Shown here piece by piece: positions 13,163 to 51,831 of a stretch of 64,000 nt of DNA. Both the position numbers and the translations under genes were made by a program. The first letter of the stretch is position 1, and each line of letters opens with the position of its first letter. The stretch comes from Bacteroidota bacterium (GTDB taxonomy: Bacteria; Bacteroidota; Bacteroidia; Cytophagales; Cyclobacteriaceae): contig CANIVF010000017.1 in NCBI GenBank assembly GCA_947470895.1, positions 1 to 64,000 of the forward strand, given 5' to 3'. Under the pieces are notes generated by a model that was not told the origin of the DNA, ran no database searches, and was given only the letters and a program-made list of their open reading frames with translations.

Positions 13163-13175
13163 ATCAGCGAATCAT

Positions 13176-15863: not shown

Positions 15864-15897
15864 CCCCGATCTGTGTCCTCACAGACCAAAATAGACT
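15864..15897. repeat. Interspersed palindromic repeat, copy 1
   Basis: A GATCTGTG-TCCT-CACAGACC type hairpin unit sits in the 142-base gap between the cytochrome gene and nagA. It matches the copy at 58303-58338 at most positions over about 35 bases, including the CCCC leader and the AAA-ACT tail. The stem is kept by compensation or G-T pairs in both. It looks like a REP-like dispersed element. It may also attenuate transcription within the cluster. Confidence 0.6.
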
Positions 15898-15937
15898 TTC
15901 CATAGCTCAAGGCACAGACGAGCAAATAGTGCGTGTC

Positions 15938-16672: not shown

Positions 16673-16674
16673 TT

Positions 16675-18162: not shown

Positions 18163-18229
18163 TCGTTAGAGATTTGATACTTCAAACTCAGGGACCTACA
18201 TCTTTACATAACAGGGTACGGCTTTATAT

Positions 18230-19552: not shown

Positions 19553-19631
19553 TTAAATAATGATCGTTTTACTAATAACATCCTTGAACTTGCCATCTTA
19601 TCTAACGTTACAGGACTTCTCTTCTGAATAT

Positions 19632-21431: not shown

Positions 21432-21486
21432 AAAATGAAGTATCGGTCAATATGGATTCCATCCTTCCTTTAAAGAGATTAACAAC

Positions 21487-22230: not shown

Positions 22231-22248
22231 TTAAGACTTTTTTATAAA

Positions 22249-23001: not shown

Positions 23002-23024
23002 TGGCTTTGTTTGGATTAACGATC

Positions 23025-24329
23025 TCAGAATGCTTTTGTAACACCAGGCATGGCAACAGGTGATGTGTGCCATTTTAAATCCCAACTATATTGATCAATG
23101 GCCGGTGAGAGTGCCACTTTTGAATTTATGGCATCGTCCCATGTTATGGTTTGTCCGGTATAAGCAACCATTCTTCCCAAAACTCCCAGCATAGAACTTC
23201 GTGCCATCACTTCGCCATCATTCATGGGTTTCCCATTTCGTATGGAAGCAAATAATTCATCATGCTCCGTTTGATACATGTCATTTTTCTCGCCCGTGTA
23301 TTGCCAATTTACTTTACCAGTAATTTCATGTTTGCCCCCACCAATAAATGCGTTGCCCTGTGTACCCGATACTTCAACTCGATTCGTAGTACTACATCCA
23401 TCTTGCTGTCTGCTAAAATGTATTCCCTTAAGGTCCTTGCCATAATCATACTCAATGGCAAAATGATCATACGCATTGCCATAAATGGGATCAACTCGTG
23501 TCTGTCTTCCACCTGTACCCATAGCACTTATCGGATTTTTATCTCCCAAAGCCCACGACATCATATCTAAACTATGAACCATCATCTCATTGATGAAGTC
23601 TCCCGACAACCAATCGTAATACAACCAGTTTCTCAATTGATATTCCATATCCGTCCAGCCCGCCTGTCTGGGTTTTGACCAGAGTTGCTCACCATTGCGC
23701 ACGGTGTATACATTTTTGATCTCACCTATTTCACCATTCAGCACTTTTTGAAATAATGCTCGCTTTGGAAAATCATACCGAAAGCAAAATCCCGACACAA
23801 CGGATAACTTTTTTTCTTTTGCCTTTTTTGCTGCTGCCAATACTTTTCGCACACCCGGGGCATCGATCGCCACGGGCTTTTCACAAAAAGCATGTTTACC
23901 AGCTTCGATGGCAGCCATCATATGATCTGGCCTAAAAGCAGGAGGCGTGGTAAGCAGCACTACATCGACATCCGACTCAATTACTTTTTTATAAGCATCG
24001 AAACCAATGAACCGATGCGTCTTGTCAACCTTTACTTTTTCAGGATACATTTCAACAAGCGCGTTGTACGACTCATCAAGTCGATCCTGAAATACATCAC
24101 CCATAGCGGTGAGCACCACATTCGGATCCGCTTGCAACGCCTGACTTGCAGCGCCTGCACCTCTGCCTCCGCATCCAATCAAACCTACCTTCAATGTATT
24201 GGTACTTCCTGCAGGTTGCTTCGCCAAACCCATCTGTGGAAGTAAGGTGCCTGCCATCACAGCTGCGCTGGTAGATTTTAAGAATCCTCTGCGACTAATT
24301 GCAAAAAACTTTTCGACATCTTTTTTCAT
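23025..24329 (-). CDS. Tat-exported Gfo/Idh/MocA oxidoreductase, first gene of the cluster
   Basis: This 434-residue protein has a twin-arginine signal ([13 protein letters not shown]). The Rossmann motif is '[14 protein letters not shown]' near residue 50 and the catalytic lysine is in '[11 protein letters not shown]'. The blocks '[13 protein letters not shown]' and '[21 protein letters not shown]' are typical of exported Bacteroidota Gfo/Idh proteins. It is probably the promoter-proximal gene of the 16-kb minus-strand cluster; a -7 element and a small palindrome lie 30-65 bases upstream. Its immediate follower is a DUF1080 protein, so a dehydrogenase plus keto-glycoside lyase pair is plausible. 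The substrate cannot be read from sequence. Confidence 0.88.
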
Positions 24330-30076: not shown

Positions 30077-30781
30077 TTAATCCTCAAGTTTCAACACTCC
30101 AAAAGACGATGGAATGTGAAAATTTGGTGTTGGTGAATCTGGCCTCACCCAACTAATCCATTTTATTTTTGAATTATCTTCGGTTATCTCAACACAATCA
30201 CCGCGATACACCCCTGCCTGTATTCTGTTCCCTTTTATAAGCTCAAGTTGCTTCAACGATTTTTTGCTGATGGCTACCTCTACGGTATAACCATCGGCAA
30301 CTTTGTTTGCCTTAATAATCAATTCACCGGCCGGCCACGACCACGTTGGTGTAAATTTTCTATGGTATTCTGCCATATAATCATACACCCTTCCGTTGGG
30401 ATCCATCTCTAAACCATAATACGGTAACATTTTATCATCCTTTCTGAAAAATATTTCAACACGATCCGATGACACAACCTCTAATTTTTCATTCGTCTTT
30501 ACCAACACATTGATGTGATCATCCTTTACCTGATACAGCAAATAGAGCCAATTCTCACTATGAAGAGCCTTAAATGAGGTGAACGAAGGTGTTTCCTTTT
30601 CCCATGGATAAATAAAATCTGTCAGTTCAATGGCATTCTTCCATAGTGGACTTTCGCCCTTGCCAGTGATGACGAGTTCTTCTCCCTTAAGTTTCCTGAC
30701 AGAATATGTTTTAACCTTGTCTTTAGTAGTGTTTGATAAAAGTCCGGCTGCCATAATGATTAAAAATAAAAAGCGAATCAT
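30077..30781 (-). CDS. Exported CBM9-like carbohydrate-binding protein
   Basis: The protein is 234 residues from the ATG at 30781, which opens a short Sec signal (MIRFLFLIIMAAGLLS). The ATG at 30829 would overlap the preceding gene and lacks a signal. The body is a beta-sandwich resembling carbohydrate-binding module family 9-like proteins: 'SENWLYLLYQVKDDHINV', 'SSDRVEIFFRKDD', 'YYGLEMDPNGRVYDYMAEY' and 'GYTVEVAISKKSLKQL'. These bind reducing ends of sugars or occur as stand-alone DOMON-like proteins. It follows the PLP enzyme gene by about 45 bases and is the last gene of the left cassette. It may present substrate or bind a cofactor; no catalytic residues are evident. Confidence 0.75.
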   Translation of the reverse strand: MIRFLFLIIMAAGLLSNTTKDKVKTYSVRKLKGEELVITGKGESPLWKNAIELTDFIYPWEKETPSFTSFKALHSENWLYLLYQVKDDHINVLVKTNEKLEVVSSDRVEIFFRKDDKMLPYYGLEMDPNGRVYDYMAEYHRKFTPTWSWPAGELIIKANKVADGYTVEVAISKKSLKQLELIKGNRIQAGVYRGDCVEITEDNSKIKWISWVRPDSPTPNFHIPSSFGVLKLED

Positions 30782-30825
30782 AGTTGAATTATTTAGTGAT
30801 CGGTGAGCATAAAATTGAATAAAAA

Positions 30826-32046
30826 TCACGTTGAAGCTTTAAGAAGTTCTTCTTGAATTCGTTTTGCCACAATCTTCTCCTGGCCCGGCTTCAACATAAA
30901 AACCGTAATACGAATACTATCTTCCTTTTCCCAACCAATCACTTCAATGGAAGGACTTCCATTGCGCAGTCGCTTTCCAAACTCATCACGGGTAACGTTT
31001 ACTTTTTTTCTATCCCAGGAAATCTCCAGCGATGGTGTGTGATTGGCAACAGGAGGCACAATCACTGCCGTTGTGACACCTTGAACTTTTTTTGCAGCAG
31101 CATTGATCACCTCAATCCGCTCTTCCCATGTTTTCCAATCCTGAGCGTGATCCCTTTTAATATAGCTGTCCAAGGCAACATACATACCGATCATTTCTTC
31201 TTTGTTCACTTTCATGCCACGGCCAATATTTCCTCCAGCCGGAGGGCCATTTAATCGTGCAGCAGCGATCAGATCTTTTTTGCCCATCAGAATTCCGGTG
31301 CTTTGAGGTCCGCAAATCGCTTTACCACCAGAAATACAAATCAGGTCAAAACCCATCACATTATACTTCCAAAGATTTTCCACAGGAGGTACATCGGCCG
31401 CCATGTCAATCATCGTTGGGATGTTGTGTTTCTTTGCAAGATCTAACCATGGCTGATGTTGAATTTTACCAACCGGTGCTTCGCGGTTTAAAAACCACAA
31501 CATCGCAGTCTTTTCATTGATTGCATTTTCTGCTTCTTCCAGAGTTTCAACAGAGACTATAGAAATACCGGTGTTGGTCAGTGCATGATGATATCCGTTG
31601 ATGTGTGTGTTTTGTATGATCACCTCCGACTTCATTCCTGTTCCTTCGAGCTTGGGTAGTTGCGATACTTTTTTGGGATCCATTCCTGTTAACACACCCG
31701 CAGTGCCTAGTACCAGAGCAGACCAGCAGCCAGCAGTTACCATAGCCGCTTCTGCTTTGCAGAGCGCAGCAATCTTTTGCCCAACTTTATCATGCACCTC
31801 GTCCAGCATCACATACTCTTTTGAAGCGCTTTGTATAGCTTCCATCACCTCATCGGGCATTAAGGAAGCAGTCATACTCGTATAATTGCCAGCAGCATTA
31901 ACGAATGTGCGAAGGCCTAGTTCTTTGAACAAATCCCGCTTTGCAGAAAGAGGAGTTGCATGTAAAAATTCGAGTGGAGTACCAACCAGTAAACCAGTGG
32001 CAAGAGGTGCCAATGATAATCTCTTTATTATTTCTCTTCGCTTCAT
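30826..32046 (-). CDS. Tat-type SelA/DgaE-like PLP enzyme, copy 1
   Basis: This 406-residue fold-type I PLP protein is related to SelA and to D-glucosaminate-6-phosphate ammonia-lyase (DgaE). The Schiff-base lysine is in 'CISGGKAICGPQS' at about residue 245, and 'MIDMAADVPP' supplies the cofactor aspartate region. The N-terminus is a twin-arginine-like signal (KRREIIKRLSLAPLATGLL), so the enzyme is likely folded with PLP and exported. No selenocysteine genes are nearby, so a true SelA role is improbable. DgaE-type chemistry eliminates water from 2-amino-aldonates and releases ammonia. Gene order with amidohydrolase, RidA and RraA-like genes supports a lyase role. It lies 44 bases after copy 2 and is about half-identical to it by eye. 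Confidence 0.85.
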   Translation of the reverse strand: MKRREIIKRLSLAPLATGLLVGTPLEFLHATPLSAKRDLFKELGLRTFVNAAGNYTSMTASLMPDEVMEAIQSASKEYVMLDEVHDKVGQKIAALCKAEAAMVTAGCWSALVLGTAGVLTGMDPKKVSQLPKLEGTGMKSEVIIQNTHINGYHHALTNTGISIVSVETLEEAENAINEKTAMLWFLNREAPVGKIQHQPWLDLAKKHNIPTMIDMAADVPPVENLWKYNVMGFDLICISGGKAICGPQSTGILMGKKDLIAAARLNGPPAGGNIGRGMKVNKEEMIGMYVALDSYIKRDHAQDWKTWEERIEVINAAAKKVQGVTTAVIVPPVANHTPSLEISWDRKKVNVTRDEFGKRLRNGSPSIEVIGWEKEDSIRITVFMLKPGQEKIVAKRIQEELLKAST

Positions 32047-32090
32047 GTTTTTGTATTACATCGTTTAAAAATCCCGAGCAAGGCTGATGT

Positions 32091-33302
32091 CTAAGAGACA
32101 GAAGCCTGTTGCAATATCTCCTTAATTCGTTTTGCTACCGTTCGCTCTTCTCCAGGTATCATCTGCCATGTGGTGATATCAATGGATTCACTACCGCCCA
32201 TAGTTTCGATAGATGGGTGTCCTTTTCGTAAAGCATCACGCGCTTCATCGGGTGTGATTTTTATTTTTTTTGCATCCCAACGCAACCGTAATGAAGGAAC
32301 GTGATTAGCAATTGCCGGAACATGGAACTCTGGTGTTACACCTGCAACCGAAGTGGCTGCATCAGCAATCATTTTGGTTTGATACTCCCACAATGTCCAA
32401 TCAGCCTTATGATCTCTGGATAAATAAACTTCAATGGCTACCAGCATTCCAAGAATTTCTTCTTTGTTTACTTTCATGCCACGGCCAACGGTGCTTCCAT
32501 TAGGTGGTGCATTTTTGCGCGCGGCCTGAATAAGATCTTTTCTTCCCAATAAAAGGCCAGCACTCTGCGGACCACGCAGTCCTTTTCCACCGGAAAAACA
32601 TACGAGGTCAAATCCCATCTGGATGTACTTCCATAAGTTTTCTGCGGGAGGAACATCTGCAGCACAATCGTTCATGGTTGGGATTTTATATTTCTTACCA
32701 ATCTCCACAAACTCTACATCTTTAATCTTTCCATCCGGATTGGCATAATTCAAAAACCAAAGCATGGCTGTTTTCTCACTGATGGCTGCTTCCAGTTCTT
32801 TTCTTGTTTCTACTTCAATTATTTTAACACCAGCATTGCGAATGGCGTGATCATAGCCAACTCGATGACTCTTTTGTCGGATCACTTCTGTTTTGATTCC
32901 AGTCATATCTGTAGGAATACGATCTGCCTTTTCAGGATCTCCACCGGTAATAACTCCTGCGGTACCCAATGTGATCGCTGAGAAGGCACCAGACGTAACC
33001 ATAACGCCTTCGCACTTAAGTAGCTCCGCTAAACGCTCACCTACGCGATCCTGCAACTCTTCCAGTTTTACAAATTGTAGTGCGGAGTAGTTAATGGCTT
33101 TGATCACTTCTGGATGAGGAAGAGATGCTGTAAGTGCGGTATAGGTTCCGGCTGCGTTAATAAATGTGCGAACTCCAAGTTCTTTAAAATAATCGCGATC
33201 ATAGTCCTTGCTAACAGTAGATGAAGCTAGCGTTTCACCGGATGCAACACCCAATAAGGGTAAGGTCATTAATCCTTTAAGAATATCTCTGCGCTTTGTC
33301 AT
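32091..33302 (-). CDS. Tat-type SelA/DgaE-like PLP enzyme, copy 2
   Basis: This 403-residue paralogue of the adjacent PLP enzyme has a twin-arginine signal (KRRDILKGLMTLPLLG). Shared blocks are 'ELGVRTFINAAGTYTALTASL', the 'DRVGERLAELLKCEG' helix, 'TMNDCAADVPP' and the lysine motif 'CFSGGKGLRGPQS'. The residue after the lysine motif differs (GLRGPQ in place of AICGPQ), which may reflect a change in substrate or stereochemistry. It begins one base after the RidA stop codon, so coupling is likely. A lyase acting on a 2-amino-aldonate is the best guess by family; racemase or aldolase activity of the same fold cannot be excluded. Confidence 0.85.
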   Translation of the reverse strand: MTKRRDILKGLMTLPLLGVASGETLASSTVSKDYDRDYFKELGVRTFINAAGTYTALTASLPHPEVIKAINYSALQFVKLEELQDRVGERLAELLKCEGVMVTSGAFSAITLGTAGVITGGDPEKADRIPTDMTGIKTEVIRQKSHRVGYDHAIRNAGVKIIEVETRKELEAAISEKTAMLWFLNYANPDGKIKDVEFVEIGKKYKIPTMNDCAADVPPAENLWKYIQMGFDLVCFSGGKGLRGPQSAGLLLGRKDLIQAARKNAPPNGSTVGRGMKVNKEEILGMLVAIEVYLSRDHKADWTLWEYQTKMIADAATSVAGVTPEFHVPAIANHVPSLRLRWDAKKIKITPDEARDALRKGHPSIETMGGSESIDITTWQMIPGEERTVAKRIKEILQQASVS

Positions 33303-33303
33303 T

Positions 33304-33777
33304 TCATTTCTTTTTTAGTGCAGCAATACAATCAATTTCAACGAGTGAGTCACCTGGTATTCCTCCCGCAGCGGCAATGGTGGTGCGCACAGGAGGATTC
33401 TTTCCAAAGCGACCACGGAAAACCTCGTTCATCTCCTTGTAATCTTTCAAGTCATTCAAATACACATTCACTTTAAGAACACGATCCATCGATGAGCCTG
33501 CCTTCTCCAGTTCACCTTGCAATTCTTTCAACACGTGATCAGTATGCGCTTTGATATCACCTTCAAAGTGTGCACCTTTTCCAGCAATGTAGACCAGACC
33601 ACCATAAACCTGTGAGCCAGAGAATAAGGGTACCTCTTGATCATAAACTACATCACCGGTTTTAATTTCATCATCTTCGTTGTTGTCAGATGCATTGGCA
33701 CTGGCTGCTGATAGTCCTAGCAGGCCAGCTGTTCCGAATAAAATCTTTTTGAAAATTGAGCGTCTATCGGTTTTCAT
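33304..33777 (-). CDS. Exported RidA/YjgF-family protein
   Basis: This 157-residue RidA-type protein hydrolyses reactive enamines and imines made by PLP enzymes. The N-terminus is a twin-arginine signal (DRRSIFKKILFGTAGLLG), which is unusual because RidA normally works in the cytoplasm. The core has 'YIAGKGAHFEGDIKAHTDHVL', 'KVNVYLNDLKDYKEMNEVF' and 'PPVRTTIAAAGGIPGDSLVEID'. The last contains the conserved arginine that binds the substrate carboxylate and the acidic residue that activates water. It lies between the PQQ dehydrogenase and PLP genes (1-base gap to the latter). The location suggests it clears the enamine product of the exported PLP enzymes in the periplasm. Confidence 0.9.
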   Translation of the reverse strand: MKTDRRSIFKKILFGTAGLLGLSAASANASDNNEDDEIKTGDVVYDQEVPLFSGSQVYGGLVYIAGKGAHFEGDIKAHTDHVLKELQGELEKAGSSMDRVLKVNVYLNDLKDYKEMNEVFRGRFGKNPPVRTTIAAAGGIPGDSLVEIDCIAALKKK

Positions 33778-33830
33778 GATTGTTAGTTTTTTTTTGTGAC
33801 TATTAAAAAATAGTGAATGTTATTCTATGT

Positions 33831-35558
33831 TTATTTTTTGCGCAGTTTCCTTACTTCCCCAGCGGTTATCTCATCATGTTTGTTTCCGAAGTTCTGTCGA
33901 ATGTACGTTAATACCCCAGAAGCTTCATCATCCGTAAGAAAGGAATGCTTCGGCATAATGGCATTATAGCCAACTCCATTTACTTCGATGTTTCCTTCAA
34001 GTCCATTGAGCAATACATTGATGAGTTTTGTTTTATCTCCTTTCACCCATGAAGCATCCACTAAAGGAGGGAACCTGCCTTCTGCTCCTTTTCCATTATG
34101 CTGATGACAAGACGCGCAATAGGTTTGATAGATTTTCTCCCCACCCGTTACTTGTCCTTTCTTTAGATTATCATCTATCTCATGGGGAGTTTTGATATGA
34201 GATAACGATTTTCTGGCTTCCATTTTGGCAAGATCAGCTTCTCCAAAACTCTTTTTATCTCCCTTATACATCACCCTCCAGATTTTTCCCTTCACTGTTT
34301 CTGACAGATAAAGAGAACCATCTGGTCCCATGGCAATCGCCATTGGTCTGTAGGGTGCATCGCTTACATCAACCAAAGCATTTTCACCTACGAAACCATC
34401 GGCAAAAACTTCCCATTTTCCTGTTGGCTTTCCATTTTCAAAAGGAATGAACGCAAAGAAATATCCCGCTTGGGGATAAGGTGCGCGATTGGTTGATCCG
34501 TGAAAGGCAATGAAGGCTCCGTTCTTGTAACGATCGGGAAACTGATCACCTGTATAAAAGAAAAGATCGTTGGGTGCCCAATGTGCAGGAAAGCCGATAA
34601 GTGGTTGAGTAAAAGAAGCACCGTTTCCTTCTTTGATACCATCACCACCGTATTCGGGATTTAATACTCGTTTTCCCTTATCCTGATCATAATAACAATA
34701 AGGCCAACCGCCATTGGCGCCTTCTTCGACTCGAAGAAATTCTTCAGAAGGATAAACAGCACTTTGCCACCTGCTGTATTCGTTAGGGTTGCGTGAATTT
34801 AAATCATCGCGACCATGCACTGCTACATACAAGGTATTGTCTGCTTTGTTCCAATCCATGGCTACAATACTTCGAATACCCGTTGCATATCGTGTGCCCC
34901 CATCCTTTTGAGTCTGTCCTATTTTGCTGGCGCTGAATTTCCAGATGCCACCATGTTCTTCAAGTTGTGAGCAAGGGTCTTCACCAGGCTCTCCCGGAAC
35001 ACGGTTTAAAATCTGGCAAACATCACCTGGCGCACCAAAGGGAACATATAAGTTTCCTGCTTCATCCAGTGCAATGGGCTTGGCGATGTGTTCATAACCA
35101 TGCTTGTCGTTTTTGTAATCATCTTTAACAATCATTTCAACTTTCCCATCCGGAATGAGTTGACCCGGGGTAAACTTTACCCGGTATACTTCACCCGCGG
35201 TGCTGAAATACATATAGCCACGGTGAATGCGCATGGCTGTTCCGTAACTTCCCTGATCGTCATAATCGCCAAAGTATTTAACCGTGTCGGCCTTTCCATC
35301 GTTATTAACATCGCGCAACGCAACGATGCCTTTTGGTTTAGCTCCTCGCAACTTCACATAAATGTCTCCATTGGCACTTACTGCCATGTGACGTGCACTA
35401 CCAACACTATCGGCCACTACTACAACGTCAAATCCAGCCGGAACAACAAGGCCCCCATGATCGGGATCACCCTTTGGTAATTCAATATTATTTCCGCAAC
35501 TGGTTATTAAGAAAGCTGCACTAATAAAGGCAATATTCTTAATGATTGAATCTCTCAT
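33831..35558 (-). CDS. PQQ-type sugar dehydrogenase lipoprotein fused to cytochrome c
   Basis: This 575-residue outer or inner membrane lipoprotein has a signal ending at the lipobox 'FLITSCGNN'. Residues about 40-450 form a six-bladed propeller of the soluble glucose/sorbosone dehydrogenase type. The C-terminal 100 residues are a mono-haem cytochrome c with CASCH and the ligand methionine in 'YNAIMPKHSFL'. Such fused enzymes oxidise an aldose or its derivative and pass electrons directly to the haem. Co-location with the amidohydrolase and SelA-like genes suggests an amino-sugar or N-acyl amino sugar as substrate. It lies 13 bases after the amidohydrolase stop and about 53 before the RidA gene. 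PQQ biosynthesis genes are not in the window. Confidence 0.88.
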   Translation of the reverse strand: MRDSIIKNIAFISAAFLITSCGNNIELPKGDPDHGGLVVPAGFDVVVVADSVGSARHMAVSANGDIYVKLRGAKPKGIVALRDVNNDGKADTVKYFGDYDDQGSYGTAMRIHRGYMYFSTAGEVYRVKFTPGQLIPDGKVEMIVKDDYKNDKHGYEHIAKPIALDEAGNLYVPFGAPGDVCQILNRVPGEPGEDPCSQLEEHGGIWKFSASKIGQTQKDGGTRYATGIRSIVAMDWNKADNTLYVAVHGRDDLNSRNPNEYSRWQSAVYPSEEFLRVEEGANGGWPYCYYDQDKGKRVLNPEYGGDGIKEGNGASFTQPLIGFPAHWAPNDLFFYTGDQFPDRYKNGAFIAFHGSTNRAPYPQAGYFFAFIPFENGKPTGKWEVFADGFVGENALVDVSDAPYRPMAIAMGPDGSLYLSETVKGKIWRVMYKGDKKSFGEADLAKMEARKSLSHIKTPHEIDDNLKKGQVTGGEKIYQTYCASCHQHNGKGAEGRFPPLVDASWVKGDKTKLINVLLNGLEGNIEVNGVGYNAIMPKHSFLTDDEASGVLTYIRQNFGNKHDEITAGEVRKLRKK

Positions 35559-35571
35559 GCGTCAAAGGCCT

Positions 35572-36798
35572 TTATTTATATAGTGGAGCAGCGAGTCCGT
35601 TTAAGTCCCAAACGATTTCGCCATTAAGAACAGTAAATTGACAAGTGAGCTTTTTATCTCCCATTACTTTGTTTCCACCAACATCTACATAACCGAACGT
35701 ACCCTTATCAACACTAAACAAAGCTACATCAGCAAGAGCACCGACACTTATATGTCCTAGTTCTTTCTTATTGATCATCTTTGCTGGATTCCAGGTGGAG
35801 CATGCGATCACTTCGTTCAGGCTCAATCCGATATTAAGCAGTTTAGACATTACGTTGGCCATATCTTTCATTCCCCCGTTCATACTTCCTGTATGTAGAT
35901 CAGTACTGATCGAATTTGGTTTTAGACCTTGCTTAATTGCTGGTATAGCTTGTTCAAACATAAAACTGCCACCACCATGACCTACATCGAAATTCACTCC
36001 TCTTTTTTGCGCAGCGGTTGCATAGGCTTGAACCTTCCCGTTTTCCACAACGTGCATTCTTCCTTCTGTTTGTCCATAGCAATGCGTGACGATATCACCA
36101 GGTCTTAGTTTCTCTAATAAAAGAGTCTCCCACGAGAGCACCGGTTTTGCTGCACCAAAATCAACCATTACCGGAACACCAGCTAACTCGCCAGCTTTCA
36201 CAGCACGGTCGGTAGGTTCCCATTCAGAACTCATATAATGTGCTAGTTTAATCCCAACAATCAAATCAGGATATTGCTTCACAACCATGGCCGTTAGTTT
36301 AGGATCCATGTCAGCAATATTTTGTTCATGAGCACCTCCACTCATACCTGCGCCCACTATATTCAAGAAGGCGAACATTCTGGTTTTGGAATTGGCAAAC
36401 GCCTGATTTTTAAAATCAGCAAAATTTCTCCAGCCTGCACCCCCTGCATCTACTACGGATGTGACTCCAGCACGAAAAGTAAAGCCATCCGGAGGAAGAG
36501 CTGTATAACTATCACTCAAATATTTATCTGGCTCAGTACCAAAATAATGGTGGCCGTGAATATCAATCAAACCAGGCACCACATAGAGCCCTGTGGCATC
36601 AATTGTTTTTAATGCCTGCTTTGAAATTTTAGGAGCTACTTCCGAAATTTTGTTTCCAATGATAGCCACATCCATGATGGCATCAATATTATTTTTGGGG
36701 TCGATAACATGCCCATTCTTTATCAGGACATCAATAGTTTGAGATTGAGCACCTACGAAGGAGCACAATAAGAATAAAATGAAGGATAGTTTTTTCAT
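35572..36798 (-). CDS. Exported EF0837-type amidohydrolase, copy 1
   Basis: This 408-residue metal-dependent hydrolase has a Sec signal ending in GAQSQ. It matches the 'amidohydrolase/deacetylase' subgroup of the amidohydrolase superfamily (EF0837, Atu3266 relatives). 'DVLIKNGHVIDPKNNI' opens it, the HxH metal site is in 'LIDIHGHHYF', and a likely carboxylated lysine is in 'IVGIKLAHY'. The other metal ligands are the histidines of 'DIVTHCYGQ' and 'DVGHGGGSF' and the aspartate of 'STDLHTG'. Members of the group sit beside SelA-like PLP enzymes in Enterococcus and Aeromonas, as here. A deacylase for an N-acyl amino-aldonate fits the context, but the substrate is unproven. It follows the RraA-type gene by about 53 bases. 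Confidence 0.88.
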   Translation of the reverse strand: MKKLSFILFLLCSFVGAQSQTIDVLIKNGHVIDPKNNIDAIMDVAIIGNKISEVAPKISKQALKTIDATGLYVVPGLIDIHGHHYFGTEPDKYLSDSYTALPPDGFTFRAGVTSVVDAGGAGWRNFADFKNQAFANSKTRMFAFLNIVGAGMSGGAHEQNIADMDPKLTAMVVKQYPDLIVGIKLAHYMSSEWEPTDRAVKAGELAGVPVMVDFGAAKPVLSWETLLLEKLRPGDIVTHCYGQTEGRMHVVENGKVQAYATAAQKRGVNFDVGHGGGSFMFEQAIPAIKQGLKPNSISTDLHTGSMNGGMKDMANVMSKLLNIGLSLNEVIACSTWNPAKMINKKELGHISVGALADVALFSVDKGTFGYVDVGGNKVMGDKKLTCQFTVLNGEIVWDLNGLAAPLYK

Positions 36799-36851
36799 AA
36801 AGTTTAGTTTATAGGCAGATAATTAAAATTGAAGATTCATTTTGATTGAGA

Positions 36852-37766
36852 TTACCAGGTTCTGTCTTTCATAAAATTTTCTAACTCTTCCATCGTAAGG
36901 GGAACGAGACCTGGATTTTCTTTCACCCACTTTAAAAAGTCTTTCTTGATAGCTTCGGTCCAGGCGGTATCAATCTGGCCCGGGGTGTAAACACCCGCTT
37001 TTAATTTGGTGATCGCAAACTTATCGCGCAGTTGGATAAACTCTGCGTTGATCACCACCTCCTCAGCAAGGTGCGCTGGAATAAAAACAACTCCTTCTTT
37101 GCGGGCCAACACCACATCCCCGGGAAGGACAGTAACTTCTCCAATAATTAATGGATGATTGATTCCCATTAACATAGTCTCCTGCAAAAAAGAAGGATGC
37201 CATCCACGCACATAGGCATTGAATCCGGTGATGGCACCCAAGCCATCGATATCACGTGCACCAGCATCGAAAATTACTCCGGTGCCTGTCTTTGAAAAAA
37301 TGGAGTTACCTAAATTATCACCAATCAATGTTCCGTCTTTTATCTTCTCAAAACAATCGGCTACATACACATCTCCTTTTTGAAGCATGTCAATAGGCCA
37401 CGAATTCATAGGGCCAACCCGGCCATCTTTTTTTCCTTTCTCAATCATGCGCGCCTGAAGGTCGGGCCGCAACGGCACATATTGAGCGGTAAGTGCTCTA
37501 CCAACAAAAGGTTCATCATCACGGAGTCGCTGCCAATTTCCATCATACTGATTATTAAAACCCTTGTTCCTCAAAATGCCCCATGCCTCTTCGATTGCAA
37601 CATTTTTCATACGCGTTATAAGTGCGTCTGAAACTTTTGGTCTGCCATCGGCATAGCGCTCTCCTTTCCATTCCCGTGTTAAAAAAACAACTTGCTCGCG
37701 ATCGAGCTGCTGAGCGTTGAGCGAAAAGAAACTAATAAATACTATTAATATCAATACATTTTTCAT
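36852..37766 (-). CDS. Exported RraA/HMG-aldolase family protein
   Basis: The protein is 304 residues with a Sec signal (MKNVLILIVFISFFSLNAQ). The RraA-type core at about 130-270 has 'IGDNLGNSIFSKTGTGVIFD' followed by 'AGARDIDGL', the glycine-aspartate and arginine-aspartate signature of class II pyruvate aldolases of this family. A 'GDVVLARKEGVVFIPAHLAEEVV' segment closes the core. Most RraA-fold enzymes work in the cytoplasm on 4-carboxy-4-hydroxy-2-oxo acids. The secretion signal here is uncommon. The signature residues are intact, so retro-aldol cleavage of a 2-keto-3-deoxy sugar acid is plausible. The first gene of the left cassette after the LacI regulator, about 100 bases from it. Confidence 0.85.
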   Translation of the reverse strand: MKNVLILIVFISFFSLNAQQLDREQVVFLTREWKGERYADGRPKVSDALITRMKNVAIEEAWGILRNKGFNNQYDGNWQRLRDDEPFVGRALTAQYVPLRPDLQARMIEKGKKDGRVGPMNSWPIDMLQKGDVYVADCFEKIKDGTLIGDNLGNSIFSKTGTGVIFDAGARDIDGLGAITGFNAYVRGWHPSFLQETMLMGINHPLIIGEVTVLPGDVVLARKEGVVFIPAHLAEEVVINAEFIQLRDKFAITKLKAGVYTPGQIDTAWTEAIKKDFLKWVKENPGLVPLTMEELENFMKDRTW

Positions 37767-37865
37767 GAGCTGAATATTTAATCTATTACTGGCTTATAAT
37801 GCGTGTGGTTAAAAGCGATTCTGTAAAATTTTCTTATTTATGATGCTTTTCATTTTGCTTTAGTC

Positions 37866-38933
37866 TTAATGAATTCCTGATGCGATATAAGAATCAACAT
37901 TTTGTTGAGTGATTACTTCGAGCGGAAAAAGTTCAGTACGTGGAATTTCTTTTTTGAAAAGCAAATGATTAGCCATGTGACTGATGCCTTGAAAAACCTG
38001 TCGTTTAGGATTTTGATTAATAAGAAAATTGATCAGCCCACCTTTTAAATGCTTCAGGTTCTCTTCCAGCATGTCATACCCAATTAATCGTATAATAATA
38101 TCGGGGTAGTCTTTTAAGATCCTCGCAATAGTTGACACTGCCTTGGATGTGGTCACAAATATTCCGGTGATGCTTTCCCTCAAGATCAGCGATTCAATTT
38201 TACTGGTAAACGATTTATCACCAGAATCCAGATTCAGGCTGGTTATTTTATATGAATAGTGAATGTTCTTTTCATAGAATTCCCGGAATCCTTTTTCTTT
38301 TTCCATCAGATAGACCGAATCCTTAACATCTTCTCCAATATGTAAGATGACAATCTCTTCAGCCGTTTCATTGCCTATACTCATTAATTGACCTGCTAGT
38401 TTTCCACTTTGAAATAAATCCTGACCAATAAAACTTAATGGCTTTGACTCTGGAATGTTAGTATTAAATAAAACATAAGGAATACCCTTTTTCTGCAGTT
38501 GGCCAAAAACCTGAAGTGCCTGCGGATAAAAAATGGGTGCGATGACCATCCCATCGGGCTTCGATTTTAACGCCTGATTGGAGATAAGCTCAAGCGATAA
38601 TTTTCCATCATGGGCATAAAAAAACGGTTCAATGGCCACTCCATAATGTCCCCATTCACCGATGGCCTGAATGATTCCTGCATTAACCTCTGCCCAGTAA
38701 GGATCCAGATTGGGTTCTGGAATGACCACCGACACTCGAAAATTCTTAGACCTTCTGAGCGATCTGGCGATCAGATTAGGCTTATAATGTATCTTTTTGA
38801 GCACATTATTGACCTTGATGAGAGCCTTTGCCGATACATTACCGCGATTATGCAAAACCCTGTCCACGGTTCCCTCGGAAACCCCAGCCATTTTTGCAAT
38901 GTCTTTTATTCGAATATTGGTTGATATCATCAA
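37866..38933 (-). CDS. LacI-family transcriptional regulator
   Basis: This 355-residue DNA-binding protein has the N-terminal helix-turn-helix 'IRIKDIAKMAGVSEGTVDRVL' (residues 6-26) followed by the hinge 'YKPNLIARSLRRSK'. A periplasmic-binding-protein-like sensor domain makes up the rest. The sensor resembles the Bacteroidota group that is annotated only as substrate-binding LacI. It is divergent from the SusC gene and upstream of the left cassette, so it probably controls both. The 151-base gap between them holds a 12-base imperfect inverted repeat and a 10-base perfect palindrome, which are candidate operators. The inducer is likely a product of the locus. Confidence 0.92.
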   Translation of the reverse strand: MMISTNIRIKDIAKMAGVSEGTVDRVLHNRGNVSAKALIKVNNVLKKIHYKPNLIARSLRRSKNFRVSVVIPEPNLDPYWAEVNAGIIQAIGEWGHYGVAIEPFFYAHDGKLSLELISNQALKSKPDGMVIAPIFYPQALQVFGQLQKKGIPYVLFNTNIPESKPLSFIGQDLFQSGKLAGQLMSIGNETAEEIVILHIGEDVKDSVYLMEKEKGFREFYEKNIHYSYKITSLNLDSGDKSFTSKIESLILRESITGIFVTTSKAVSTIARILKDYPDIIIRLIGYDMLEENLKHLKGGLINFLINQNPKRQVFQGISHMANHLLFKKEIPRTELFPLEVITQQNVDSYIASGIH

Positions 38934-38950: not shown

Positions 38951-38983
38951 TGTTTTCGCACACAATTTAACTGTGCGCGAACA
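38951..38983. promoter_or_regulatory. Candidate LacI operator: inverted repeat
   Basis: Arms TGTTTTCGCACA (38951-38962) and TGTGCGCGAACA (38972-38983) match at 10 of 12 paired positions around a nine-base centre. It lies 18 bases beyond the LacI start codon and about 100 bases before SusC, the usual location for an operator controlling both. Confidence 0.45.
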
Positions 38984-39084: not shown

Positions 39085-42000
39085 ATGAAAAAACGATTAC
39101 TTAAACTCACGTGCCTGATCATGCTTCTGAGCGTATCAGTGTATGCGCAGAAAGTGACCGGTAAGGTTACCTCTGAAACAGACGGATCTCCCATGCCAGG
39201 AGTTTCGGTTCTGGTGAAGGGAACATCTACAGGTACTGCCACCGATTCCGATGGTAGCTATGCTTTAAATGTTTCTGACTCTAATGGCACTTTGGTCTTC
39301 TCCTTTATAGGATATGTGACCAAAGAAGTTTCCCTTCAGGGAAGATCAGTTGTTGATTTGGCCTTGTCAGAAGATGCCACGCAACTCAGCGAAGTTGTAG
39401 TTACAGCTTTGGGAATCTCCCGTGAAACAAAAACGCTCGTTTACGCAACTCAACAAGTAAAGCCTTCCCAGCTAGTGGAAGTTAGAGATGCAAACAACGT
39501 GATGAACTCTCTGCAAGGCAAAGTTGCCAACGCAGTGATTACGCAGGGTTCTGGTGGTCCTGGTTCTGGTGTTCGTGTTGTACTTCGCGGTAACCGCTCA
39601 ATTCAGGGAAGTAACAATGCTCTTATTGTGGTAGACGGTGTTCCTATTACTAACGGAACTAACGGTACCATCAACAGTGACTTTGGTGGTTTACAAGGTT
39701 CTGACGGTGCTTCAAACATCAACCCTGATGATATTGAGTCAATGACCATTTTGCGTGGCGCATCGGCAGCCGCTCTTTATGGTAGTGCAGCTGGTAACGG
39801 TGTAATTGTTATTACCACAAAAAAAGGTGGTAAAGATAAAGTTACAGTATCTATTAACTCAGGTGTTACGACAGAAAGACCTTTTGTAATGCCAAATTTC
39901 CAAAATCAATATGGCCAAGGTAACTCAGGTGTATTGAAATCTAACTCAGGCGAAAGCTGGGGAGCCAAAATGGACGGTCAGTCATTCACAGGCTATATGG
40001 GCGAACCTCGCACTTATTCTGCTCAGAACGATAACGTTAAGGATTTCTTTAGAACTGGTGTTTCTCTAAATAACTCAATCAACGTTTCTGGAGGGTCAGA
40101 AAAAATGCAGACCTATTTATCTTATACAAGTAATAAGATTCAAGGAATTCAACCTCTCAACGATCTTAATCGTCACTCCATAAACCTGCGTATTACGAAT
40201 AATATTGGTAAGAGAATCAAAACGGATGCAAAGTTGACTTACATTCTTCAGAATAGAGATAACATCTATGAAACAGGAGAATCTGCTCTTAGCCCCGTTC
40301 TTGCTATTTACCAGATCCCACGCAACGTAAGTCTAAGCGATGCTGAACATTATCAGGACCTGAACAACGTAGGTGTTCCTGTGCGTGCGCCTTACCCTGT
40401 TATTAACCCTGCCTTGTATCAAAACCCTTACTGGATTGTTAATAATACAGTAACTAATGAAGTACGAAACAGAATCATGGGATTCTTGTCTGCTTCTTAT
40501 GATATTACCGATTGGTTGAAAATAAGCGGTAGAGCAAACACCGATAAGTACACCGATGTGATGCAAAGATCATTCAATGCTGGAACAGTAGGCCTTTCAA
40601 GTGCTGGAGGTTCTTATAGCAGACAAGAAATCAATGTTACTCAATATTGGTTTGATACCATGATTGAAGGAAAAAACAAATTGACTGATGACCTTAAGAT
40701 AGATTACCGTATTGGTGCCATTATTCAAGACAATAAATATGATGCGCTTTATACTAATGCAAATGGCTTAAACGTAACAAACAAGTTTGGTTTGAATTTC
40801 GCAACTAATCCAAATTATGGTCAGGATGCCAGCCAGGTTCAAACACAGTCTGCATTTGCTCAGGTGAACCTTTCTTTCAAGGAAGCAATCTTCTTAGATG
40901 CCAGCTTGAGAAATGATTGGAGCTCAACACTACCTTCTCCTTATTCTTTCAGCTATCCATCGGTAGGTCTTTCAGCAATTCTTTCAGACTTAATGACTAT
41001 ACCTGATGCTATCTCATTTTTGAAAGTTAACGGTAGTTATGCTGAGGTAGGTAACGGAGGTCGTGCTCAGTTGCGTTTTAATACTTATGGCTACTCTCAA
41101 GGTGGTACGAATGGATTTATTTTTAGAGGTTCTACTCAAGCTATTCCTAATTTATTACCAGAAATTGTTAAAAACATAGAACTTGGTCTTGAAGCTAAGT
41201 TTCTGGAAAACAAGCTTGGCATGCAGTTTACGTTCTATAAGAGCAATTCATTCAACCAATTGTTGCAAGTTGGTGTGCCTGTGGCAACTGGTTTCTCTTC
41301 TAAGTATATCAATGCTGGAAATATCCAGAATCAGGGTATCGAATTGGTTATTAACGGATCTCCTTTAAAGGATGGCCCTCTTAAGTGGGATATTGGCTTC
41401 AACATGGGTATGAACCGTAACAAGATCATTGAACTTACAGAAACAGTTAAAGAGTTTACATTAGCAGGCGGCTTCGGTCGTTCGGCAACTCCTGTTGTAA
41501 GAGAAGGTGGTAGCTACGGAGATATGCAAGGATTTTTCTGGATGAATACAGCCGATAAGTATGATACTAATGGAAAGTTACTAAGTCACTCTAACGATGG
41601 AACTCCAAAGGTAACCGCAGATGGCTCACCCCTTTCTTCTCTTACTACTGGTACTTATGGAGACCTTGGAAACTTCAATCCTAAAGCTACACTTGGCTTA
41701 ACTAACACATTCAATTACGGAAAACTCTCTCTAAGACTCCTGATTGATGGTCGTGTAGGTGGAACTGTAGTAGATGGAACAGAAATGTTCCTTGCTTACA
41801 ATGGTGCACCTGAAGTTACTTCTCAACACAGAGAAGGTGGATGGATTCTTGGAGGCGTTGGCGCTGACGGTTCCACCAAGATAAACACAGCGATAAACGC
41901 ACAGCAATTCTGGACAACCGCCTCAGGTGGCCGCTATGGTTCTGCTGAATTCTTTACTTACAATGCAACGAACTTCAGAGTACGTGAACTTTCAATCGGT

Positions 42001-42237
42001 TATACTGTACCCGTTCCTGAGAATTCCGTTTTCAAAGTGGTGCGCATTTCAGCTGTTGCACGTAACTTGTTCTTCCTTTACAGAGGATATTCAAAACTTG
42101 AAATCCCAGGAATTGCGAAACGTAAAATGGCATTCGACCCTGACATGTCACTGGGTAATGGTAACTGGCAAGGTATTTCTTACGGAACATTACCTTCAAC
42201 ACGTAGTTTAGGATTCAACCTCCAGTTAACTTTCTAA
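39085..42237 (+). CDS. SusC/RagA-type TonB-dependent outer membrane transporter
   Basis: This 1050-residue outer-membrane importer has a Sec signal ending in VYAQ. An N-terminal carboxypeptidase-regulatory-like domain ('VTGKVTSETDGSPMPGVSV') covers about 23-110. The plug carries the SusC signature 'NSLQGKVANAVITQ' and 'VRVVLRGNRSIQGSNNALIV'. A 22-strand barrel follows and ends in a terminal aromatic residue ('FNLQLTF'). The pair with the SusD gene 20 bases later is classical. Cargo is probably a glycan or modified sugar acid of the locus. It is the first gene of a plus-strand unit under likely control of the divergent LacI regulator. Confidence 0.97.
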   Translation: MKKRLLKLTCLIMLLSVSVYAQKVTGKVTSETDGSPMPGVSVLVKGTSTGTATDSDGSYALNVSDSNGTLVFSFIGYVTKEVSLQGRSVVDLALSEDATQLSEVVVTALGISRETKTLVYATQQVKPSQLVEVRDANNVMNSLQGKVANAVITQGSGGPGSGVRVVLRGNRSIQGSNNALIVVDGVPITNGTNGTINSDFGGLQGSDGASNINPDDIESMTILRGASAAALYGSAAGNGVIVITTKKGGKDKVTVSINSGVTTERPFVMPNFQNQYGQGNSGVLKSNSGESWGAKMDGQSFTGYMGEPRTYSAQNDNVKDFFRTGVSLNNSINVSGGSEKMQTYLSYTSNKIQGIQPLNDLNRHSINLRITNNIGKRIKTDAKLTYILQNRDNIYETGESALSPVLAIYQIPRNVSLSDAEHYQDLNNVGVPVRAPYPVINPALYQNPYWIVNNTVTNEVRNRIMGFLSASYDITDWLKISGRANTDKYTDVMQRSFNAGTVGLSSAGGSYSRQEINVTQYWFDTMIEGKNKLTDDLKIDYRIGAIIQDNKYDALYTNANGLNVTNKFGLNFATNPNYGQDASQVQTQSAFAQVNLSFKEAIFLDASLRNDWSSTLPSPYSFSYPSVGLSAILSDLMTIPDAISFLKVNGSYAEVGNGGRAQLRFNTYGYSQGGTNGFIFRGSTQAIPNLLPEIVKNIELGLEAKFLENKLGMQFTFYKSNSFNQLLQVGVPVATGFSSKYINAGNIQNQGIELVINGSPLKDGPLKWDIGFNMGMNRNKIIELTETVKEFTLAGGFGRSATPVVREGGSYGDMQGFFWMNTADKYDTNGKLLSHSNDGTPKVTADGSPLSSLTTGTYGDLGNFNPKATLGLTNTFNYGKLSLRLLIDGRVGGTVVDGTEMFLAYNGAPEVTSQHREGGWILGGVGADGSTKINTAINAQQFWTTASGGRYGSAEFFTYNATNFRVRELSIGYTVPVPENSVFKVVRISAVARNLFFLYRGYSKLEIPGIAKRKMAFDPDMSLGNGNWQGISYGTLPSTRSLGFNLQLTF

Positions 42238-42257: not shown

Positions 42258-43853
42258 ATGAAAATTGATATGAAAAAAATTATAAACCTCTTAAAATCGT
42301 ACGGAGGCTATTTGTTTCTGTGCAGTGTTGTACTGGTTGTGTCGTGTACCAACGACTATGACGACATTAACACCAACAAGAATGCTCTTTCAAAATTGGA
42401 AACATCACAACTCCCTTTCCTCTTTTCGAAAGCGCAATCAACGGCAACTAATAACGGTTGGAATTATCAGGTCGCTCAGAATTTATTTCACGATCAGTAT
42501 TGTCAGTATTTCTCTAATACGACTACATACTTCCCTTCTGATCGTCTTGTAATCCGTATGGACTGGATCAGAGCGGCATGGAACCCTATCTACAGCGAAG
42601 TAGTTCCTCAATTGCAGACTCTGCTTGAGCAATATGATCCAGCTTCTGCTGAATATTCCATCGCTCAGGTTTGGTGGGTATACACTTTCCATAGACTGAC
42701 TGACACCTGGGGCCCTGTACCTTATTTTAATGCCGGTGTTTCTGGCACAGGCGTACCCTATGATGCTCAGGATAAAATCTATGATGATATGCTGAAACGA
42801 TTGGCTACCGCTATCACCGTGTTAAACGGAAAGAAAAGCGAGCAGCCATTTGGCACGTTCGATCTAATCTACAAAGGAGACGTGAACAAGTGGATCAAAT
42901 TTGCAAACACCTTAAGACTTCGTCTCGCTATTCGTATTTCTAAAGTAGATCCTGCAAGAGCAAAAACAGAAGGTGAGGCAGCAGCAGCTGGTGGTGTATT
43001 AGCAGATAGCCCCGCAGATGATGCTTTGATTTTCAGAACCCTTAAGGGTGATGATTTTAATGGTCTTACTGTAATGGACTGGAACGAGTTTAGAATGAGC
43101 GCAACCATGGAATCTGTTTTGAAAGGATATTCCGATCCTCGCATGGGCGTATTCTTCAGTCCTGCAGCTTCCGGTGGTTATCATGGACTCCGCAATGGTC
43201 TTTCATCTGCTGATATGGCTGTTGCCCTTAATGCCGCTGATAACAATTCAAATAAAGGTCCTCGTTGGGATAAATCTATTCCGTCATCCATGGAAACTCC
43301 TTCCAATGTAATGGCCACGGCAGAAGCTTGGTTCTTACGCGCAGAAGGTGTGATGCTTGGCTGGAACATGGGCGGTGGAACCGCTGAATCATATTACAAT
43401 CAGGGTATCACCGAATCTATGAATCAGTGGGGTATTACCGATGCAGCTGCTATCGACACTTATATAAATAGCGCTGCTGTTCCAGTTGCTCCTGGCGATG
43501 CACAGGGTTCACCTGCTGTATCTTCAGCTCCTGTGAAATTTGGCGCGACATCAGATCTTCAAAAAGAACAAATCACCATTCAAAAATGGCTTGCGTTGTT
43601 CCCTGAAGGCGTAGAAGCATGGGCCGATATCCGCAGAAGTAGAGCATTCAAATTGTATCCTGTAGTAAAATCAGACAATTCTGACTTGCCAACGGCTGCT
43701 GATATCAATGCTCCTTCAAACAACTGGATCAGAAGAATTCCTTTCATCACAGATGAAAAGGTAACCAATGGTGCAGAAGTAGATAAGGCGGTTCCGTTAT
43801 TGGGTTCCGGTGGTGATAAGATCACAACTCCACTCTGGTGGGATAAAAACTAA
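42258..43853 (+). CDS. SusD/RagB-family outer membrane lipoprotein
   Basis: This 531-residue surface lipoprotein captures substrate above the SusC pore. The signal leads to the lipobox 'VVLVVSCTND'. The ATG at 42270 (MKKIINLLKSY) is an equally likely start. It belongs to the SusD-like_2 group, with 'DDINTNKNALSK', 'AQVWWVYTFHRLTDTWGPVPY' and 'WIKFANTLRLRLAIR', and the C-terminal 'LFPEGVEAWADIRRSRAF' block. The TPR-like helices typical of the family cover the middle. A strong terminator follows 20 bases later, so the SusCD unit is transcribed separately from the VCBS gene. Confidence 0.95.
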   Translation: MKIDMKKIINLLKSYGGYLFLCSVVLVVSCTNDYDDINTNKNALSKLETSQLPFLFSKAQSTATNNGWNYQVAQNLFHDQYCQYFSNTTTYFPSDRLVIRMDWIRAAWNPIYSEVVPQLQTLLEQYDPASAEYSIAQVWWVYTFHRLTDTWGPVPYFNAGVSGTGVPYDAQDKIYDDMLKRLATAITVLNGKKSEQPFGTFDLIYKGDVNKWIKFANTLRLRLAIRISKVDPARAKTEGEAAAAGGVLADSPADDALIFRTLKGDDFNGLTVMDWNEFRMSATMESVLKGYSDPRMGVFFSPAASGGYHGLRNGLSSADMAVALNAADNNSNKGPRWDKSIPSSMETPSNVMATAEAWFLRAEGVMLGWNMGGGTAESYYNQGITESMNQWGITDAAAIDTYINSAAVPVAPGDAQGSPAVSSAPVKFGATSDLQKEQITIQKWLALFPEGVEAWADIRRSRAFKLYPVVKSDNSDLPTAADINAPSNNWIRRIPFITDEKVTNGAEVDKAVPLLGSGGDKITTPLWWDKN

Positions 43854-51827: not shown

Positions 51828-51831
51828 TAGA

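Follow-up and report, generated by a model that had tools for sequence, protein, structure and literature searches.

Introduction

How, and in which compartment, do bacteria break down 2-amino sugar acids? The closest described route is the ong pathway of Pseudoalteromonas prydzensis. In this pathway, OngB deacetylates N-acetyl-D-glucosaminate (GlcNAc1A), the fold-III pyridoxal 5'-phosphate (PLP) deaminase OngC then yields 2-keto-3-deoxygluconate (KDG) and ammonia, and a KDG kinase follows; as described there, OngB and OngC are predicted by the authors to be cytoplasmic, and a RidA protein, OngD, is essential, its role being stated as unknown (PMC9537276). OngB is further described as a subtype V D-aminoacylase-like enzyme (PMC12017989). 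Here, we examine a 64,000-nucleotide stretch of DNA (the window) from contig C17 of a 4.9-Mb Cyclobacteriaceae genome (Bacteroidota), the minus strand of which encodes an RraA-like protein, an amidohydrolase, a pyrroloquinoline quinone (PQQ)-type sugar dehydrogenase, RidA, two SelA/DgaE-fold PLP proteins, and a CBM9-like protein. This module appears to work like ong and the dga-type systems but is a member of neither; outside the cytoplasm, it would arrive at an intermediate of the same sort with a PLP fold and a deacylase that differ from those of ong.

As far as ong is described, the two systems share a de-N-acetylase, a PLP deaminase, RidA, a downstream KDG route, and TonB-dependent receptors, and the chemistry on N-acetyl-glucosaminate would be analogous. 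The window, however, has a deacylase of the EF0837 type, a PLP enzyme of the SelA/DgaE fold, export signals, and an added sugar dehydrogenase. Membership in ong was rejected: the window has no OngB or OngC orthologues, SelA2 has the SelA fold whereas OngC is fold-III, and window proteins carry export signals. The match between P. prydzensis OngB and the window amidohydrolase AH1 was limited to residues 19-84 (E 2.6e-5). The dga-type systems of Klebsiella and Enterococcus resemble the window in their homologous PLP fold and amidohydrolase, and the Klebsiella counterpart (amidohydrolase-DgaE-KDGP aldolase-lactonase, in that order) also places a KDGP aldolase and a lactonase beside this pair. They differ in having uptake genes of the phosphotransferase system (PTS) or of a PTS-like kind (in Salmonella, a PTS drives the dga pathway) and in keeping a His-His pair and Arg301/Arg332 in the PLP enzyme and a His where the window amidohydrolase has Asp213. 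No RidA was matched in the four dga-type loci examined.

Pseudomonads and acetic acid bacteria oxidize sugars with periplasmic PQQ enzymes and use the resulting acids in the cytoplasm. Aldose oxidation would be extracytoplasmic in the window module as well, which would add deacylation, deamination, and perhaps aldol cleavage outside. PvdN, which is exported by the twin-arginine translocation (Tat) pathway, is a precedent for a periplasmic PLP enzyme, but it is an oxidative decarboxylase of pyoverdine modification and no catabolic lyase. In the open-licence literature, we found no description of an exported SelA/RidA/amidohydrolase module, a periplasmic RidA, or a periplasmic Entner-Doudoroff route.

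Results

The gene set, its export signals, and its conservation are solid. The initial annotation had placed seven families with Sec, Tat, or lipobox signals in one minus-strand unit; profile matches confirmed all seven at 30077-37766, and a signal was seen on each (by eye only on the dehydrogenase and the CBM9 protein). Transcription runs from 37766 to 30077 in the order RraA-like, AH1, GSDH-cytochrome c, RidA, SelA2, SelA1, CBM9, with gaps of 1-53 bases and a 4-base overlap of the longest CBM9 reading with SelA1; because the gaps are so short, the seven genes likely form one operon. A lacI gene precedes it, and the SusCD genes diverge on the plus strand. We read the locus as an operon under LacI control and linked to SusCD, the products of which would degrade N-acylated 2-amino sugar acids outside the cytoplasm and without phosphorylation, a reading in which our confidence falls just short of even. 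The genes, signals, most residues, and their association are observed, and the substrate, order, and reactions are proposed.

How widely is this gene set conserved? SelA relatives number at least 529 in GTDB genomes, of which we studied the best 80 loci, a set biased to close relatives. By label, these are mostly Bacteroidota, with 11 acidobacterial loci plus Balneolaceae, a KSB1 metagenome-assembled genome (MAG), and two MAGs labelled Alphaproteobacteria and Arcobacter. Among the 50 loci in which a SelA gene has 5 kb of sequence on either flank, an amidohydrolase was found in 41, RidA in 36, both in 34, and either in 43; a GSDH was present in 26, a lactonase in 13, and RraA in 7. By comparison, 20 control regions of 20 kb, hand-picked at round coordinates in six clade-carrying genomes, held one amidohydrolase, one GSDH, and one SusC but no RidA, lactonase, or RraA (uncorrected Fisher tests: P < 0.01 for amidohydrolase, RidA, GSDH, and lactonase; P = 0.083 for RraA). 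Clustering beyond chance is thereby borne out. RidA is an immediate same-strand neighbor of SelA in 34 of the 80 loci and an amidohydrolase in 45; across all 80, GSDH was found in 34, RraA in 12, CBM9 in 8 (with this query), and DgoK in 5, and 13 loci hold at least two SelA copies.

A less biased sample gave the same picture for the central trio. The clade was found in 8 of 394 genomes drawn by phylum and 8 of 395 drawn by class, our own genome included both times, which leaves 11 others; one of these (G773) is the same record as a locus among the 80 (L078). Few candidates were scored per genome, so the tallies are lower bounds: amidohydrolase and RidA in all 11, lactonase and GSDH in at least 8 each, RraA, BASS, and SusC in at least 6 each, and CBM9 in at least 1. 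DgoK and KDPG aldolase were found in none of the 11, within the stretches around SelA. Distances over 46 loci correlate between SelA and amidohydrolase (r = 0.74), SelA and RidA (0.44), and RidA and amidohydrolase (0.48), with 0 of 2,000 permutations as high, in Mantel-type correlations that include shared ancestry. Thus, SelA, amidohydrolase, and RidA are a conserved exported module. Co-occurrence of the exported genes across genomes was borne out for these three; RraA, present in just 12 of 80 loci and 6 of 11 genomes, we rejected as a core member. The distribution of the module is patchy, strong SelA matches (E 1e-28 or better) occurring in 4 of 24 other genomes of the genus. On a Granulicella plasmid, the genes stand in a row as RraA-SelA-RidA-PLP enzyme-amidohydrolase-lactonase-BBE protein.

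Export was scored by eye and with our own rule-based heuristic, run in the window on SelA1-3, RidA, AH1-3, and RraA. Twin-arginine motifs were seen in SelA2 (RR-D-I-L-K), SelA1 (RR-E-I-I-K), and RidA (RR-S-I-F-K), and both approaches found Sec-type signals in AH1 and RraA; by eye only, the GSDH-cytochrome c fusion has a lipobox (ITSCG), and CBM9 has a signal-like start at an internal ATG. TatC is encoded in the same genome. Over the 80 loci, the heuristic in its second version scored 88 of 93 SelA homologues as Tat (2 none, 3 truncated) and 35 of 48 RidA homologues as Tat (11 Sec, 1 none, 1 truncated). A second RidA type, found with a lipoprotein query, gave 11 Sec and 4 lipoprotein signals in 15; amidohydrolases had a signal in 79 of 84, the other 5 being truncated; and 10 of 12 RraA proteins scored Sec, with 1 truncated and 1 scored none (RR-K-F-L by eye). 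In the 80 and the sampled loci together, signals were present in 22/24 and 8/8 lactonases of two families, 37/41 GSDH-cytochrome proteins, and 2/3 of the GSDH2 type. The sampled loci alone gave 17 Tat, 2 Sec, and 1 none for SelA; 12 Tat, 7 Sec, and 3 lipoprotein signals for RidA; and a signal in 17/18 amidohydrolases and 6/6 RraA proteins. Independently of the heuristic, Arg-Arg is kept at 95-96% in 122 SelA-clade sequences. The PLP proteins thus carry Tat signals and the metal-, PQQ-, and haem-type enzymes mostly Sec or lipoprotein signals. Tat exports folded proteins, and its use would be logical if these enzymes receive their PLP before export, as they may. A first version of the heuristic had been discarded: it allowed no proline, among other residues, within the hydrophobic stretch and so scored 46 of 93 SelA proteins as cytosolic, scored Sec in two presumed cytosolic controls (an Enterococcus amidohydrolase and a Rhizobium SelA), and missed several signal-like Granulicella starts.

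Active Sites and Folds of the Module Proteins

What might the SelA-like proteins do? SelA1 and SelA2 score 163 and 177 bits against the "DgaE family" profile TIGR01437 (cut-off 385) and 137 and 152 bits against NF047797 (cut-off 600), all below cut-off. The AlphaFold model of SelA2 has a mean predicted local distance difference test score (pLDDT) of 91.3, and its best Protein Data Bank match is DGL (7lc0), the best match by sequence as well as by fold. We surveyed 129 nonredundant SelA-family sequences in DGL numbering. The His162-His163 pair is missing from 122, including all three window proteins as well as 4 sequences from plasmid records of haloarchaea and Sinorhizobium for which export was not checked; it is present in 7 presumed cytosolic plasmid comparators. 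The PLP lysine is kept in all 122 pair-less sequences, of which only 5 have the phosphate-binding Arg332 and 2 Arg346; at position 301, the eight commonest residues (114/122) exclude Arg. In the 7 comparators, Arg301 and Arg332 are kept throughout and Arg346 in 4. Because most of the DgaE phosphate-binding arginines are lost, an unphosphorylated substrate would fit, in line with the initial proposal of a route that needs no phosphorylation. The H163A mutant of DGL is described as active and as releasing an enamine, RidA being named among the enzymes that degrade such enamines (PMC9529869). Having lost the proton-donor His, as in that mutant, the exported lyases may pass an enamine to a dedicated RidA.

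One related locus (L066:4640-7189) has a UxaC-family (glucuronate isomerase) gene directly upstream of an exported-type SelA gene and holds neither RidA nor amidohydrolase, and MR_MLE proteins lie near exported SelA in L039 (17098-18339, with a Tat-like start), L043, L047, L051, and L071.

The window RidA scores 64.6 bits against TIGR00004, below the cut-off of 106, and the Arg that we take to be catalytic is present in 45 of 45 aligned homologues. Elsewhere in the genome, contig C20 carries two tandem RidA-family genes (37840-38835; 175 and 178 aa), with no SelA match on that contig. The GSDH-cytochrome c fusion reaches 30 bits against a Pfam cut-off of 25; its model (pLDDT 80.7) matches fungal AA12/PQQ pyranose dehydrogenases first, and its 18 best fold matches are all AA12, PQQ, or soluble glucose/aldose dehydrogenases, which places the product, a putative PQQ sugar dehydrogenase, in the quinoprotein sugar-dehydrogenase beta-propeller fold. 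A pqqC profile matched nowhere in the genome, nor in the controls, and is hence uninformative.

AH1 exceeds the NF006689 cut-off of 371 bits and reaches 254 of the 432 set for TIGR03583 (EF_0837). The HxH motif, Lys184, His239, and Asp300 are invariant in 78 of 78 module amidohydrolases, and these too depart from their cytosolic counterparts: His187 is invariant and His302 nearly so where the Klebsiella and Enterococcus enzymes have Met and Tyr, respectively. At probable active-site positions, then, the module's lyase and deacylase alike have diverged from the cytosolic pair.

Sugar-Acid Context and the RraA Branch

The neighbors of the module, their families scanned on one or two representatives and otherwise assigned by clustering, bear out the sugar-acid orientation that was first proposed. 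Two lactonase families, sugar dehydrogenases, CBM9, and SusCD are recurrent partners, and two loci (L037 and L052) have the order SusC-SusD-SelA-amidohydrolase-DgoK-KDPG aldolase-galactonate-type major facilitator superfamily (MFS) transporter-SelA; L039 likewise holds DgoK, the KDGal kinase, and KDPG aldolase. With kinase, aldolase, and transporter all present, the L037/L052 order fits import and use of a 2-keto-3-deoxy-aldonate. Our own genome has DgoK beside a KDPG aldolase on contig C7 and several SMP-30-type lactonases outside the window. Since lactonases, dehydrogenases, DgoK/KDPG aldolase, and a galactonate-type transporter recur, sugar-acid substrates are favored. In one locus (L045:2774-4399), a CBM9 domain is fused to an SMP-30/gluconolactonase domain.

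RraA keeps an Arg-Asp motif, presumably catalytic, in 12/12 homologues and a second Asp in 10/12. It occurs with a BASS transporter in 11 loci, alone in 7, BASS alone in 6, and neither in 71 (P = 3e-6, in a table that counts one genome, G773 = L078, twice and some others more than once), and 8 pairs are adjacent on the same strand. The plant BASS2 protein is a pyruvate importer; because RraA goes with BASS, its product in the periplasm may be pyruvate. Our own genome has three more exported RraA genes, in tandem, together with a PQQ dehydrogenase-cytochrome c and a Tat-type MR_MLE protein (L223, contig C2:84001-104000, at 5167-13107). The best model for this MR_MLE protein is galactonate dehydratase, below cut-off, and ThuA and GH5 genes are nearby. 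The RraA-MR_MLE pairing is repeated in two congeners, with a BASS gene beside one. As a parallel to the module, this cluster favors 2-keto-3-deoxy acids as substrates of RraA. The idea that RraA and DgoK exclude each other was dropped, the 0 co-occurrences yielding P = 0.34.

Other Features of the Window

The coordinates are collected in Table 1. The inverted repeat between lacI and susC is likely an operator that serves both the enzyme operon and SusCD, its chance level not having been estimated. A congener locus (L004) has a similar repeat in the same intergenic position. A pattern search of the genome returned the window site and one other site with 3 mismatches, and a control pattern also returned one match; this was a weak search, the pattern being one base off in the right arm so that the window site itself scored 3 mismatches.

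Table 1. Positions of the operon, its regulator, and associated features in the window
Feature	Position	Strand	Match or detail
CBM9-like protein, putative exported sugar binder	30077-30829	-	Pfam CBM9_1 1.2e-15
SelA/DgaE-fold PLP enzyme 1 (SelA1), Tat signal; putative 2-amino-aldonate ammonia-lyase	30826-32046	-	TIGR01437 E 6.6e-48
SelA/DgaE-fold PLP enzyme 2 (SelA2), Tat signal; putative 2-amino-aldonate ammonia-lyase	32091-33302	-	TIGR01437 E 3.6e-52
RidA, Tat signal; putative enamine/imine hydrolase	33304-33777	-	Pfam 2.3e-19
PQQ-type sugar dehydrogenase (GSDH)-cytochrome c fusion, CASCH at residue 481, lipobox	33831-35558	-	Pfam
AH1, EF0837/PRK09237-type amidohydrolase, Sec signal; putative N-deacylase	35572-36798	-	NF006689 441.5 bits
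RraA-like putative 2-keto-3-deoxy-acid aldolase, Sec signal	36852-37766	-	Pfam 3.3e-17
LacI-family regulator	37866-38933	-	family match
Operator-like inverted repeat between lacI and susC	38951-38983	.	arms 38951-38962 and 38972-38983; 10/12 complementary
SusC-like TonB-dependent receptor	39085-42237	+	family match
SusD-like lipoprotein	42258-43853	+	1.3e-113
FG-GAP/ASPIC protein 1	43928-47416	+	family match
DUF5107-TPR protein	48729-51827	+	family match
FG-GAP/ASPIC protein 2	51814-55131	+	family match
SelA/DgaE-fold PLP enzyme 3 (SelA3), Tat signal, extra C-terminal segment	55333-56958	+	TIGR01437 match
Amidohydrolase AH2, Sec signal	56990-58270	+	family match
Amidohydrolase AH3, Sec signal; longest reading probably begins upstream of the true start	58273-59622	+	family match
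PQQ-type aldose dehydrogenase GSDH2, lipoprotein-like signal by eye	59634-60770	+	GSDH 5.4e-115

Past the SusCD, FG-GAP, and DUF5107-TPR genes lies a second exported set, SelA3-AH2-AH3-GSDH2 (55333-60770, plus strand), which the initial annotation lacked. The whole genome has three TIGR01437 matches (E up to 0.001), all within the window. SelA3 is extended at its C terminus by ~120 residues, a segment that matched no Pfam family. A long co-directional run at 6482-24329 on the minus strand resembles a cluster of its own for sugars or amines; the proteins scanned in it include GFO/IDH/MocA oxidoreductases, a flavin amine oxidase, an MFS protein, and a GDSL hydrolase.

Discussion

How might the module operate? 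The PQQ dehydrogenase with its own cytochrome would oxidize an aldose at C1 to a lactone and then an aldonate, a step in which a lactonase may often assist in relatives. The amidohydrolase would take off the N-acyl group, and the Tat-exported DgaE-fold PLP lyase would remove water from C2-C3. Having no proton-donor His, the lyase may release an enamine, which the co-exported RidA would hydrolyze to ammonia and a 2-keto-3-deoxy-aldonate. From here, two branches can be envisaged: in one, the RraA-like aldolase would cleave the 2-keto-3-deoxy-aldonate in the periplasm, the pyruvate perhaps being taken up by the neighboring BASS in relatives; in the other, the 2-keto-3-deoxy-aldonate would be imported and handled by a DgoK/KDPG aldolase pair such as the one in our own genome. 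More tentatively, and with appreciably less confidence than in the amino-sugar-acid reading of the operon, members of the Bacteroidota may run an unphosphorylated, Entner-Doudoroff-like route outside the cytoplasm. In this route, Tat-exported MR_MLE dehydratases (for neutral aldonates) and Tat-exported SelA-fold lyases with RidA (for amino aldonates) would meet at 2-keto-3-deoxy acids, followed by exported RraA and pyruvate uptake.

Several observations weigh against the proposed breakdown of amino sugar acids. All 78 module amidohydrolases carry Asp at position 213, which in the Klebsiella and Enterococcus enzymes is occupied by His, a putative metal ligand, and position 274, also His in those enzymes, is His in only 28 of 78; ligand roles here are ones we assume. 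The Asp at 213 weakens the case for a full cytosolic-type metal site, and the family name makes deacylation look more certain than it is. The Asp213 finding moved our confidence in the operon reading from slightly above to slightly below even and trimmed that in the extracytoplasmic two-branch route a little within its tentative range. Cap15 (8t7j), an O2-dependent PLP enzyme, is the second-best fold match of SelA2, with the same template modeling score (TMt 0.88) as DGL. Neither RidA nor amidohydrolase is present in 7 of the 50 flanked loci (L017, L021, L028, L047, L066, L069, and L076), the acidobacterial loci, several on short contigs, have RidA in only 4 of 11 and amidohydrolase in 2 of 11, and the congener operon (L004/L131) has neither RraA nor SelA1. 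RidA was found near His-pair SelA in 3 of 7 comparator loci (Rhizobium, Ensifer, and Paraburkholderia), which refutes the idea that RidA occurs only where the DgaE histidines are lost. CBM9 relatives carry a signal in only 5 of 9 cases (80 and sampled loci), and the export calls come from a heuristic retuned once half of the SelA signals had escaped its first version, the two cytosolic controls not having been rescored. DgoK, in 4 of 50 flanked loci, is not significant against the controls (P = 0.25). No amino-sugar glycosidase was evident among the 25 window proteins scanned, lactonase queries matched none of the window's proteins, and we found no reported activity for any module member. The initial annotation is thus partly supported. 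To call the pathway complete was too strong, given that RraA, dehydrogenase, and lactonase vary, that no window lactonase was matched, and that other downstream routes exist; of the enzyme identities, most catalytic residues are intact, but the amidohydrolase Asp213 and the equal fit of Cap15 to the SelA fold leave them less certain.

Which other readings compete? The same exported logic of deacylase, PLP lyase, and RidA could serve N-acyl-D-beta-hydroxy amino acids (D-serine, D-threonine, or peptide-derived residues). N-acetyl-D-serine is reportedly a weak substrate of a cog3964 relative, and the 7 of 50 loci without RidA and amidohydrolase could be counted on this side too, as could the deamination of D-serine and D-threonine described for the functional analogue OngC (PMC9537276). 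The recurrence of sugar dehydrogenases, lactonases, CBM9, SusCD, DgoK-KDPG aldolase, and the galactonate-type transporter speaks against such substrates, which we consider unlikely. Slightly less credible is a loose set of exported enzymes for unrelated sugar acids under one regulator, with no single linear pathway: RraA, GSDH, CBM9, and lactonase are variable, and several loci have at least two amidohydrolases or SelA copies, but the SelA, RidA, and amidohydrolase distances correlate and both partners are present in every sampled genome.

Two further readings turn on the chemistry of the PLP enzyme, and both strike us as improbable. If the SelA-like enzymes were O2-dependent PLP oxygenase-decarboxylases like Cap15, they would yield an amide or a shortened acid, and RidA and RraA would serve other steps. 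The equal fold match fits this, as does the lack of a His-His pair in the Cap15 alignment, and PvdN, a PLP enzyme of the periplasm, is described as catalyzing oxidative decarboxylation (PMC6411801). However, the sequence match to DGL is far stronger (6e-35 vs. 4.8e-21), and the RidA, DgoK, and aldolase neighbors suit an ammonia-lyase. Marginally more doubtful still is an oxidized muramic acid or other peptidoglycan amino sugar as substrate, from which the PLP enzyme would remove the lactyl ether at C3 and not water. In an Enterococcus faecalis plasmid record (L154), a MupG-family gene and PTS components do lie next to the amidohydrolase-DgaE pair, a hint that the substrate there may derive from muropeptides; against it, no muropeptide gene was recognized among the scanned window proteins and neighbor-cluster representatives, a scan outside which most neighbors fall.

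What would the breakdown of N-acylated 2-amino sugar acids by exported enzymes mean? The amino-aldonate routes in the cited papers deaminate in the cytoplasm, and an exported module would move deamination beyond the inner membrane. It would account for a set of genes, "selenocysteine synthase-like," "dihydroorotase-like," and RidA, for which a name is difficult to derive from sequence. If true, it would also provide a natural setting for RidA as a pathway enzyme, a point of interest for ong, where the role of OngD is stated to be unknown. A RidA in the periplasm would then clear the enamine from a lyase that no longer has a proton donor of its own, an arrangement that we did not find described in print and that raises the question of whether loss of the DgaE histidine makes the lyase RidA-dependent.

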